From Bifidobacterium actinocoloniiforme DSM 22766 (GTDB lineage: Bacteria; Actinomycetota; Actinomycetes; Actinomycetales; Bifidobacteriaceae): a DNA stretch of 64,000 nt. The DNA lies in assembly GCF_001263395.1 (NCBI RefSeq), contig NZ_CP011786.1, positions 496,001-560,000 of the forward strand, in the 5' to 3' direction. Shown here in pieces: positions 21,344 to 34,735 of this stretch. Both the position numbers and the translations under genes were made by a program. Below the pieces are notes generated by a model that searched no databases, was not told the origin of the DNA, and worked only from the letters and a program-made list of their open reading frames with translations. The first letter of the stretch is position 1; every line of letters starts with the position of its first letter.

Positions 21344-21417
21344 CGGGCCGTAGCGCAGTTTGGTAGCGCACTTGACTGGGGGTCAAGGGGTCGCGGGTTC
21401 AAATCCCGCCGGCCCGA
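21344..21417 (+). tRNA. tRNA-Pro (GGG)
   Basis: Full cloverleaf: acceptor CGGGCCG pairs with CGGCCCG; anticodon arm CTTGA-CTGGGGG-TCAAG gives anticodon GGG; T arm GCGGGTTCAAATCCCGC; discriminator A; CCA is not encoded. A terminator follows within 10 bases. The island starts directly after it. Confidence 0.95.
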
Positions 21418-21426
21418 CGAGATAGC

Positions 21427-21460
21427 AAAATTCCAAGGCTTTCGGGCCTTGGAATTTTTC
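21427..21460 (+). terminator. Rho-independent terminator of tRNA-Pro
   Basis: AAAATTCCAAGGC pairs with GCCTTGGAATTTT across a six-base loop, ending in a T run (GAATTTTTC). This is a classic intrinsic terminator, 10 bases after the tRNA. Confidence 0.92.
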
Positions 21461-21476
21461 GTATGCCACCAATCGG

Positions 21477-22770
21477 GGTCTACGGGAGCTGAACGTGTTG
21501 TTTTAGGGTTTGGGTATGTGCCTGGTTGCGCGTCCATCGGATCCTGCTGTTGGGTGTCTGACGGGTGTGTCGAACTCGTTCCGATTGATGGCGGGACCGT
21601 AGTTGTCGGGCCCGTCCGTCTGCTGTCCGGTCCTTTGTTCCCATGCCGATTGCGGCTGGTGGTGCTTGTCCCTGATCAGGCTGGTGGGGTCGGGGTCGGC
21701 GCCTCTCATGTGGCATCGCCGTTCGCGGGCACGTCCCATGTGCCCCTCGGGCTGGCCGTGGCGGTTGCAGGAGGGTGCGTTTGATCAGGCAGTTGGGGCC
21801 ACCCTCCAGCCGGTTGGCGGCGTTCCACTGGGCACTTTCGGTCGGGCCGGGTTCCAGGAAGGCGAAGCGCCGGCCCTTAAGGGGCAAGCGTTCCAGGCGC
21901 CGGTAGCGTCGCCTCAGCTCCTGGCGGGTTCGTCGCCAAGAGCCGTTTGCGGACTTGGGGTTGGTTCGGGTCGTTCTTGGCCATGGCGCGTTCGTTGATG
22001 GACCTCTTCCGCCGCTCGTGCCAGGCGTTGGGGGCCTCGCCCCACCGGGAGCGGGGTGCATGTCAGATCGGCCCTGGTGCTGCGCTGCGCGTGCACTGGG
22101 CAGCGTTGCATGCGTGTGCCGAGCTAGATGGCCCCGCGGACCTTCTGCGCGCCGCGCAGGCCTTCGGCGATGAGCGCGTCCGGCTGCGGGATGCGGGAGA
22201 AGGGGGCCGTGGGCGCCTCGGTGTTCTCGTAGTGGCAGCATCGCCGGTCGATGGCCTGTCCGCTGGCCCCGTCAGTCGCTATGACCCGGCTTCGGCGGTG
22301 GGCCATGTAGGTGCCGTGGGCCGTGACCGTGTGCTGGGCCATCCCCGTGCGGCTCGATGACGGGGTATGCTCCGGCGCCAGCCGACCTGTTTGCGCCGCG
22401 CCCGGGCCCCCGTGACCCCCGTCTGTTCCTGTGCCCCGCCCGAGGAGGCAGCCGGTCCAGGAACTCCTTCCGGCTGGGCGGACCGCAGACGGTCCGTGGG
22501 CCGTGCGGTGGACGTCAGCGAGCGGGACGGGCACATCCGCCGCGGCGAACCTGACGCCGCGCGCCAGTGCTTGCCCATCGGCCCGCGGTGTATCGGGCAA
22601 TGTCTGGCCCTCTTCGACCTGGTCCTTATGCACCAATTGAACGGGACGCCACGCCCCCCCCGGCACCTCCCCTCCCCATGAAGACCCCGGGTTTATTGAC
22701 GCCATCCGACACGACCACTGCCACAAGCCCAAACTCCCAACATAAACAACACGTTAAGTTCCCATAGGCC
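21477..22770 (-). mobile_element. Decayed IS256-family (IS1249-like, zinc-ribbon variant) insertion sequence
   Basis: About 1.29 kb bounded by inverted ends. The left end reads GGTCTACGGGAGCTGAACGT, and the complement of the right end reads GGCCTATGGGAACTTAACGT; both continue with GTTGTTT. Between them, on the - strand and spread over several frames, lie blocks of an IS256 variant transposase: HTVTAHGTYMAHRRSRVIATDGASG, then PDALIAEGLRGAQK, QRCPVHAQRSTRADLT, FLEPGPTES and ANRLEGGPNCLIKRTLL. No single frame covers the gene, so it is inactive. I see no target duplication at the edges. Confidence 0.75.
21490..22732 (-). pseudogene. Transposase remnant of the IS256-type element
   Basis: The gene would start near 22730 and end near 21490 on the - strand. 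It is broken by several frameshifts: HTVTAHGTYMAH and DALIAEGLRGAQ lie in one frame, QRCPVHAQRSTRADL in a second, and NAANRLEGGPNCLIKRTLLQ in a third. The N-terminal zinc-ribbon cysteines that mark this variant are not clearly readable. It shows decay of long standing. Confidence 0.7.
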
Positions 22771-22809
22771 CTAAGTGCTTAGATTTGTATTTATTCGAGG
22801 AGGAATGTA

Positions 22810-24108
22810 ATGCAGAGAATAAGTAAGAGAGGCTCGTGTGACGGATGCCGTGGTCTGCAGCCTGGCTACAATTGCCGGAATTTAGCCTGTGGACGTACCG
22901 AAGGTGGGGACGCCAAAGACACCGATTCCACTGTTTCCAGTATCGACAGCAAGCCAGCAAAGGGCGTTTTGACGCTTTGGCGATGGGAGCCGAAGGGAAG
23001 AAGCTTCCTGAGCTGGTCAAAGACTCTGAAAAGGAGAACTCCGAACGTTCATGTCAAAGTGACCTCTATACCTTGGGACTCCGCTCACGACAAGTTTCAG
23101 ACAGCCATTGCGGCTGGCAATGGTCCAGATTTGGCCTAGATAATCAACACTTGGATGGCCGATTTCAGCAATGCCCTCTCGACCGTGCCAAGCAACCTCT
23201 CCATGGATGACATGGCATCCGGCCCCGTTGAGGGCGGTAAGGTCGATGGGTAAGCAGCTGGGTGTGCTTTGGTATATCGACACCCATGTCCTCTATACCG
23301 CACTGATCTGGCCCAGCAGGCCGGTTAGGGCCACGCTCCCAAGACCTGGGATGAGCTCAGCGCAATGGGCAAAGACATGAAGAAGCTGGACGGCACGCAC
23401 TTCGGTCTCTACCTGAACCCTGCTGGAACGGACAACTTCATCGCTGATCTTCCATTCGCTTTTTCTGCTGGCACCTCGCTGACCGACGAGTAAGGTAAGA
23501 GGTGGACCTTGAACACCCCGGAGATGCGAAAGGCTATCACCTATACCAGCAATCTCTTCAAGGAAGGTATTGCAGATGTGAATGCCGATACCAGTGCGGG
23601 TACCAACATGGCCGCCTTCGCCTCGGGCAAAACCTCCATGATGATGGAAGGCTTCACTGCCATCGGCCAGGTGGAGCAGGTAGGTGGTCCTGATATGGGG
23701 AACAAGTTCACCACTGCTCCTCTGCCCAAGGGTGAGAAGGAGTCGGTTTCCTATTCGGGAGGCCGCGACATGGTTGTATTCAAGGACTCTAAGAACAAGG
23801 ATGCCGCCTGGAAGATGACCAAGTGGATGAGCAAGCCTGAGACCCAGGCCAAGTGGTACAAGCTTTCCGCCGATCTTCCGACCTCGTCCAAGGCTTGGGA
23901 GGATCCGGAGCTGAAGAATGATGAGAAGCTGACCTCTTTTGCCATCCAAATGAAGAGCATGAAGGCTACCCCGTCCGTCATCACCTGTGCACAGGTCAGT
24001 GCTTCGGTCGATAAAATCATGGAGCAAATCAACAAGGGTGCCTTCAGTGTTGACAATGGTCTGGAACAGTTCCAGTCCGAGGCGGAATCAGCCGGGATGG
24101 GCAACTGA
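22810..24108 (+). pseudogene. Sugar ABC transporter substrate-binding protein, broken
   Basis: A family 1 extracellular solute-binding protein. A strong site (CGAGGAGGAATG) precedes the ATG at 22810. The first 109 codons read to LTLWRWEPKG and FQTAIAAGNGPDLA, then a TAG at 23137 stops translation. Homology resumes (INTWMADFSNALSTVPSNLSM, DELSAMGKDMKKLDGTHFGLY) with two frame changes around 23245-23300 and more stops near 23326 and 23491. An intact last third from 23509 (TPEMRKAITYTSNLFKEGIAD) runs to the stop at 24108. It is certainly non-functional. It heads a dead operon with the two permeases downstream. Confidence 0.85.
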
Positions 24109-24110
24109 AC

Positions 24111-33973: not shown

Positions 33974-34048
33974 ATGCCAGTAGCCCAATGGAATTAGAGC
34001 AGCTGACTACGGATCAGCAGGTCGCAGGTTCGAATCCTGTCTGGCGCA
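33974..34048 (+). pseudogene. Degenerate tRNA-Arg (ACG)
   Basis: The 3' half is a normal tRNA-Arg: anticodon arm GCTGA-CTACGGA-TCAGC (anticodon ACG), T arm GCAGGTTCGAATCCTGT, CTGGCGC acceptor strand and discriminator A. The 5' half is damaged: ATGCCAG against CTGGCGC gives an A-C mismatch and a T-G pair at the end, and the D stem GCCC/GAGC has a C-A mismatch. A terminator follows. It is either a decaying gene or an integration scar; weak function cannot be excluded. Confidence 0.7.
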
Positions 34049-34058
34049 CGGGAAGGCA

Positions 34059-34101
34059 ATGGTTCCAAGGTTCCACGGCCTCGGGACCATTCCTGTTTTT
34101 T
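34059..34101 (+). terminator. Terminator after the tRNA-Arg-like sequence
   Basis: AATGGTTCC pairs with GGGACCATT (one G-T pair), followed by CCTGTTTTTTC. It is an intrinsic terminator matching the layout after tRNA-Pro at 21.4 kb. Confidence 0.8.
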
Positions 34102-34136
34102 CGGAATCGGACATATTTCGGGCACATCGTATAAGC

Positions 34137-34256
34137 AGGTCTATGGGAGCTGAACGTGTTGTTTTAGGATTTGGGTATGTACTTGGTTGTGCGTCCGCCG
34201 TACCCTGCCGTTAGGGTGTCTGGCAGGTGTGTCGAACTCGTTCCGGTCGATATTGC
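34137..34256 (+). mobile_element. Truncated end of the IS256-type element (second copy)
   Basis: About 115 bases nearly match 21479-21590, beginning TCTATGGGAGCTGAACGTGT and running through GTGTCGAACTCGTTCCG. It then changes abruptly near 34256 to sequence resembling an excisionase. Only the end that carries the transposase 3' tail is present. Same orientation as the copy at 21.5 kb. Confidence 0.7.
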
Positions 34257-34257
34257 G

Positions 34258-34428
34258 GCGTATCAGGTGCGCCACATCCTCCGGTGGGTATCTGAGCAGC
34301 CGTCCGGTATGCACATACGGGAGTTCGATTTCCAGCGCCCTCCAGGCGTTCAACGTGCTCACCGGTGTCAGCAGCCTGCCCGGCGTCATGGCCGCGTTCC
34401 CATTCGTCGTCTCTCGTGTTTGGCTCAT
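34258..34428 (-). pseudogene. Excisionase-like helix-turn-helix fragment
   Basis: The - strand reads RLLTPVSTLNAWRALEIELPYVHTGRLLRYPPEDVAHLIRR. The second half matches the excisionase/MerR-like pattern (ELPxVxxGRLLRxxPEDVxxLI), but the first helix is altered. The frame runs into the IS end downstream, so it has been joined to foreign sequence and is probably dead. Confidence 0.5.
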
Positions 34429-34735
34429 ACCTGTGGGTCCTGCCCCATTGGGGGAATGTGGCCTTGAAGGACATCACCACGGCGCGGGTTCAGCGCTGGT
34501 ATGTCAGCCTGGCGGATGGGAAGGCGCCGTACGGCGGTGAAGGGGGCTGCGGTTCCCCGCTGTCCGCCTCCTCGTTTGTTCGGCGGGCAAGATCGTGTTG
34601 GGCTCGGTCCCGGATGCGGCGGTTGAGAGCCGCCGGATTGGCGCGACTCCGGTGGCGCAGGCGACGGTCCCAGGAATTGTCCAGATCGTTCATGGGACCT
34701 CTCAAGCCATCCGATCTGCGGGTATGGCATTAGGC
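34425..34735 (+). pseudogene. Tyrosine integrase, N-terminal remnant
   Basis: The + strand reads LPHWGNVALKDITTARVQRWYVSLADGKAP, the SAM-like DNA-binding domain of phage-type integrases (pattern lPxlGxxxLxdITxxxVxxW). Further on, in a second frame, KIVLGSVPDAAVESRRIGATPVA matches the next helices of that domain. At least one frameshift divides them. No catalytic domain (R-HxxR-Y) is present. Together with the tRNA-Arg-like sequence it marks an old integration site. Confidence 0.6.

Follow-up and report, generated by a model that had tools for sequence, protein, structure and literature searches.

Islands that tyrosine integrases insert at tRNA genes have a classical anatomy, comprising the tRNA gene, the integrase and a downstream copy of the tRNA 3' end (PMC4383910), and the insertion sequence (IS) IS1249 forms the composite transposon Tn5432 (PMC8304765). 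Here we analyze a 64,000-nt stretch, positions 496001-560000 of a 1.83-Mb single-contig Bifidobacterium genome (the window; all coordinates are positions within it), in which the DNA between a tRNA-Pro(GGG) gene and a cmk-der fusion gene is a layered, well-bounded genomic island at an integrase hotspot. At its center lies a block (22784-34045), carrying one dead and one live sugar operon, that was horizontally acquired, and its source arrangement is the region from tlyA to the native tRNA-Arg(ACG) gene in the lineage of B. indicum and the bee-clade genome G002. Islands of this kind are already known; a transplanted tRNA-Arg neighborhood marked by a chimeric tRNA is an unusual history and no new category. 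We found no published description of this locus in the literature searched. An earlier note on this DNA had proposed an accessory island here, an interpretation that was right yet incomplete, as it foresaw neither the transplanted neighborhood nor the chimera.

The block and the DNA that adjoins it on the right comprise the following features, for which ratios of nonsynonymous to synonymous divergence (dN/dS) are given against G002:

22784..25932, + strand: dead operon 1, coding for a solute-binding protein and two permeases, interrupted by stops and frameshifts and lacking its LacI gene (89% to G002 L183:3437-6580)
25936..26400, + strand: C-terminal portion of a gene for a GH1 beta-glucosidase, which lacks ~890 bp present in G002
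26951..27979, + strand: LacI-type regulator, first gene of operon 2 (Pfam LacI; dN/dS 0.21)
28119..29435, + strand: sugar-binding lipoprotein (Pfam SBP_bac_1; dN/dS 0.14)
29596..31428, + strand: two ABC permeases (Pfam BPD_transp_1; dN/dS 0.11 and 0.04)
31429..33849, + strand: GH31 alpha-xylosidase, YicI type (NCBIfam alpha-xylosidase; YicI structures; dN/dS 0.10)
33850..33973, + strand: donor-type DNA upstream of tRNA-Arg (in the part that aligns, 85% to G002 and 79% to B. indicum; cannot be aligned with the own-clade version)
33974..34049, + strand: chimeric, degenerate tRNA-Arg(ACG) with a donor-type 5' half, an own-clade 3' half, a 2-nt acceptor-stem loss and a 1-nt D-loop insertion
34050..34137, + strand: own-clade-type tRNA-Arg terminator and flank (matches G007 at 77/86 bases; absent downstream of the tRNA-Arg genes of B. 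indicum and G024)

Over 11 kb the block is colinear with G002, from 13 bp past the right end of an IS relic at the island's left edge to the tRNA-Arg. In alignments to G002 contig 16, identity is 89% for 22784-25932 and 92% for 25936-34045, with no rearrangement and with the GH1 deletion as the only gap in colinearity; core DNA of the window and G002 is 74-78% identical. The gene order in G002 is a HAD gene, tlyA, operon 1 (lacI, binding protein, two permeases, GH1), operon 2 (lacI, binding protein, two permeases, GH31) and tRNA-Arg; the same tRNA-Arg site holds operon 2 by itself in both B. indicum (G023) and G040. The GH31 tree groups the window with G002 (100/98), and the cmk-der tree groups it with G006 (96/93), the B. 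xylocopae XV2 genome that is the window's nearest relative in the comparison set (cmk-der 81%, galU 80%), a conflict that indicates horizontal transfer of the block. That the segment was inherited vertically here and lost elsewhere is refuted by this conflict and by the segment's absence at this position from all relatives and from the 80 named loci examined; its identity to G002, far above the core level, also speaks against this account, for which we found no evidence and which has almost no probability. The window copy has its origin in the G002 lineage, and its present site is a new one. Within the block, operon 2 is flanked by a 41-base direct repeat (83%), at 26625-26665 and 33886-33926, that matches DNA preceding tRNA-Arg in relatives; this repeat is a possible trace of the way in which operon 2 came into the tRNA-Arg locus of the donor.

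The tRNA-Arg copy at 33974 came along as a passenger. Compared with 27 other copies, it has the upstream DNA and the 5' half, including the D-arm, of the donor (matching G002 and G023), and the T-arm base, terminator and downstream DNA of the window's own clade. The diagnostic T-arm base is C only in the window, the native copy of the same genome, G006, G018 and G007, and T in all 23 other rows of the comparison. The joint lies between ~33993 and 34023, at or beside a 35-base core (34015-34049) that recurs, 100% identical, as an attachment (att) fragment where the native tRNA-Arg lies in the window's own genome, G006 and G007. With two acceptor-stem bases lost and one D-loop base gained, the copy is very likely a pseudogene; it has neither the intact acceptor stem nor the standard D-loop of a functional tRNA-Arg(ACG), and it scores 50.4 bits versus 62.7 for the native copy. 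The earlier note had bounded the island by two tRNAs, and both are real, this one being detectable though degraded. An apparent island edge at a second tRNA can thus be a passenger brought with a neighboring operon, and bases within a tRNA that are specific to a lineage make it possible to date and orient such transfers.

The genome also has an intact native tRNA-Arg 0.27 Mb from the window copy, at ~804.7 kb, where it keeps the same tlyA context without operons; its synteny with tlyA and the HAD gene is shared by relatives. The block could have entered this locus by homologous recombination, with tlyA and tRNA-Arg as anchors, and later been copied to tRNA-Pro by IS activity. Ordinary recombination between conserved parts would then explain the chimera, but the native loci of both this genome and G006 keep the ancestral upstream layout with no operon trace, and no operon remnants were found at the genome's own locus, so we consider such an internal rearrangement improbable.

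Four features define the place of insertion, and two IS1249-family ends and a pair of gene remnants mark the edges of the block:

19754..21184, − strand: galU/ugpA, UTP-glucose-1-phosphate uridylyltransferase, left core flank (Pfam UDPGP 7e-118; adjoins tRNA-Pro in relatives)
21344..21418, + strand: intact tRNA-Pro(GGG), integrase attachment site (ARAGORN; Rfam 68.3 bits; att core ~21384-21418; 3' copies downstream in relatives, for example G007 and G022)
21436..21459, + strand: tRNA-Pro terminator, a hairpin and T run identified from the sequence and conserved in att copies of relatives
21477..22771, − strand: decayed full-length IS1249-family (IS256 superfamily) element, its right end abutting the transplanted DNA (terminal inverted repeats; 73-74% to intact IS copies)
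34138..34251, − strand: second IS1249-family left end, truncated, 114 bases (match to the left IS end)
34252..34428, − strand: excisionase-like gene remnant, helix-turn-helix (HTH) type (75% DNA match to the G007 tRNA-Arg locus, where an intact xis-like frame lies)
34431..34702, + strand: tyrosine integrase remnant (67% across 49 aa to the G023 integrase at tRNA-Pro, E 1e-21)
39461..41845, − strand: cmk-der fusion, right core flank (present in all 27 genomes of the genus)

The tRNA-Pro(GGG) gene between galU and cmk-der is the attachment site of a family of tyrosine-integrase elements in bifidobacteria. We surveyed 80 named loci around galU, among genomes that do not include the window's own species, and 27 of them show both tRNA-Pro(GGG) and cmk-der. 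The two genes are tightly joined, 76-332 bp apart, in 16 of these 27 loci. Among relatives of the window the interval measures ~1.9 kb in G006, 1.7 kb in G009, 2.9 kb in G004 and 20 kb in B. indicum, and it reaches 32 kb in G007 and up to ~44 kb in G014; in many distant species the tRNA-Pro has the opposite orientation. A second tRNA-Pro 3' part, often with the terminator, lies downstream in G007, G022, G005, G017 and G014, the match in G007 and G022 beginning at CAAGGGG in the anticodon stem, and tyrosine integrases lie on the 3' side of tRNA-Pro in B. indicum, Bombiscardovia coagulans and others, an arrangement that matches the classical one (PMC4383910). No GH31 gene occurs at the tRNA-Pro/cmk-der site in the 80 named loci. 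The comparison across this interval, which the earlier note had put forward as a check, bears out the accessory island: the segment is missing here in every relative examined, distant bifidobacteria included, and many of these have the tight junction. Its proposed right boundary at 34735 was too short; 34740-39460 is also accessory, and the limit is cmk-der at 39461, the first core gene on the right. A recurrent integration hotspot in bifidobacteria is now mapped.

At the left edge, the IS relic starts 17 bases past the tRNA-Pro terminator, as had been claimed, and what was described as an IS remnant proves to be a full-length relic with 28-nt terminal inverted repeats (86% complementary). Along its whole length it is homologous to intact IS1249-family elements that occur in multiple copies in bee-clade bifidobacteria, both termini being present at 73-74% identity; the intact transposase of one such copy scores 458 bits with the NCBIfam IS1249 model (cut-off 300), and the frame across the relic itself gave no significant Pfam match. 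On the right the relic adjoins an operator-like palindrome of operon 1, located between lacI and the gene for the binding protein and uninterrupted in G002. No target duplication surrounds the relic (CCAATCGG versus CTAAGTGC), as expected if the IS joins two backgrounds. The same left end recurs in the same orientation at the right edge, as previously noticed, after the tRNA-Arg terminator; 99 of 113 aligned bases are identical, and the 12% that differ (14/113) are in the range of synonymous divergence (dS) of operon 2 from G002 (0.13-0.28), making a shared arrival possible. The cargo is thus bracketed by two IS copies, the right one truncated. We also considered whether this IS targets tRNA terminators as a rule and rejected the idea, most insertion sites examined in relatives not being beside tRNAs. 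Elsewhere in the same genome, an IS1249-family transposase gene with a 400-aa open frame (L182:8382-9584, ~803.4-804.6 kb) lies directly downstream of the native tRNA-Arg, and ~5 kb beyond it is a 35-base tRNA-Arg 3' fragment, a second decayed integration site.

We think it rather probable that the island was built in layers: a G002-lineage block with its chimeric passenger tRNA-Arg, delivered beside tRNA-Pro by IS1249-family elements and then partly decayed. Before the block moved, an own-clade-type integrative element would have entered the donor's tRNA-Arg by recombination, at or beside the att core that runs from anticodon to T-arm. The block, with the tRNA-Arg as passenger, would then have been delivered downstream of tRNA-Pro by the IS copies at its two edges, whether these formed a composite transposon or IS copies recombined with one another. 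Because the right IS is truncated, we favor IS-mediated delivery as the simplest reading and no more firmly than that. Several points weigh against this history. The right IS has lost its outer end and, with it, any flanking duplication by which composite transposition could be proved; duplications are also missing around several IS copies in relatives. The two IS copies could have inserted independently, since this IS also follows tRNA-Pro in G003 and tRNA-Arg in G039 and G010. The contig of G002, a metagenome-assembled genome, breaks off within tRNA-Arg and does not show what lies downstream in the donor. The C marker is not perfectly clade-wide, as G022 belongs to the window's own clade on cmk-der yet has a T-type tRNA-Arg, and the chimera could stem from homologous recombination.

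Alternatively, a tyrosine-integrase element at the donor's tRNA-Arg may have moved with adjacent chromosomal DNA, by aberrant excision or Hfr-like transfer, into the tRNA-Pro site, whose 3' end resembles that of tRNA-Arg, the IS copies coming later. The best match to the tRNA-Pro 3' end in the island is indeed the tRNA-Arg 3' end (24/35 bases; shuffle maximum 22), the chimera joint between D-arm and T-arm lies at or beside an att core whose C-type form own-clade elements share, and the same integrase family occurs at tRNA-Arg in G007 and at tRNA-Pro in G023 and G022. But the block starts at an IS end and at no att site, the integrase and excisionase scraps lie outside it, and, the tRNA-Arg itself excepted, no second copy of either tRNA 3' end above shuffles occurs in 21430-39500. 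We regard this integrase-borne entry as possible though unlikely, and rank it below IS delivery because no att copy is present at the right edge. The earlier note had suggested IS-mediated or tRNA-targeted acquisition; the former is plausible and favored, short of proof, and the latter, for the segment as a whole, is unsupported, as the right side has no duplicate of the tRNA-Pro 3' end and the tRNA-Arg is cargo.

The integrases at the G007 tRNA-Arg and the B. indicum tRNA-Pro (L188:16106-16708, L144:2712-3829) are closely related (77-89% in aligned parts), which suggests a change of attachment site within one integrase family. A broader idea, which we regard as doubtful, is that one family of integrative elements switches between tRNA-Arg and tRNA-Pro sites, dragging along host DNA from upstream of the tRNA, with the chimeric tRNA marking the crossover; if true, it would give tRNA-flanking chromosomal operons a route to spread between bifidobacterial species.

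The scraps beyond the right IS end are as previously described: the integrase piece, a remnant of ~90 aa that is all the island retains of an integrase, matches the B. indicum tRNA-Pro integrase by tblastn, and the excisionase-like piece adjoins the IS end, although it has no significant Pfam match (HTH_17 is weak, E 0.057). Two accessory modules follow:

34950..36594, − strand: two degraded flavodoxin/flavin mononucleotide (FMN)-reductase genes and a MerR regulator (Pfam; similar module elsewhere in G018)
37031..38647, − strand: thiamine pyrophosphate (TPP) enzyme, acetolactate synthase large-subunit type (NCBIfam NF006187, 661 bits, cut-off 509)

The flavodoxin/MerR module is 66-71% identical in DNA to one at another G018 locus. 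The TPP enzyme passes the cut-off for acetolactate synthase large subunit (PRK08322) and fits pyruvate oxidase less well; its sole other close copy in the genus set is in G018 (88%), 8.4 kb downstream of that genome's tRNA-Arg. We do not claim that 34740-39460 came wholly from the same tRNA-Arg locus, since the TPP enzyme alone hints at this and the flavodoxin/MerR module lies elsewhere in G018.

Comparison with intact homologues agrees with the reported dead (22810-26400) and live (26951-33849) operons. Operon 2 is intact and under purifying selection (dN/dS 0.04-0.21), while operon 1, with its stops, frameshifts and one deletion, the IS copies, the integrase and excisionase genes and the surplus tRNA-Arg decayed after arrival. 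The GH31 enzyme scores 1029.7 bits with NF007940 (curated equivalog cut-off 606), and its nearest solved relatives are YicI structures. From family membership, the function that selection has kept is probably the import and cleavage of alpha-xylosides such as isoprimeverose. The operon is a selected sugar-use trait common to insect-associated lineages.

Like islands of the classical tRNA-borne (Islander) type (PMC4383910), this one sits on the 3' side of a tRNA gene with an att core from anticodon stem to 3' end, integrase and excisionase scraps and variable cargo; unlike them, it has no displaced tRNA-Pro 3' fragment at its far end, and its main block is bounded by IS ends and bears a different tRNA. 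Bifidobacterium prophages in tRNA-Met, tmRNA and dnaJ2 (PMC6109161) likewise use integrase att sites, and a phage attP that resembles another species' attB recalls the C-type marker here, but their target genes differ and no phage genes were recognized at this locus. With Tn5432 of corynebacteria (PMC8304765) the locus shares two related IS1249-family copies around foreign DNA, although here the right copy is truncated and the cargo is sugar operons and a tRNA instead of erm(X). The carbohydrate islands described for bee-gut symbionts (PMC4449606) resemble this locus in that strain-specific carbohydrate genes are carried in genomic islands; they differ in consisting of phosphotransferase system islands of Firm-5 lactobacilli and bifidobacterial eps regions rather than of a tRNA-Pro/tRNA-Arg block.

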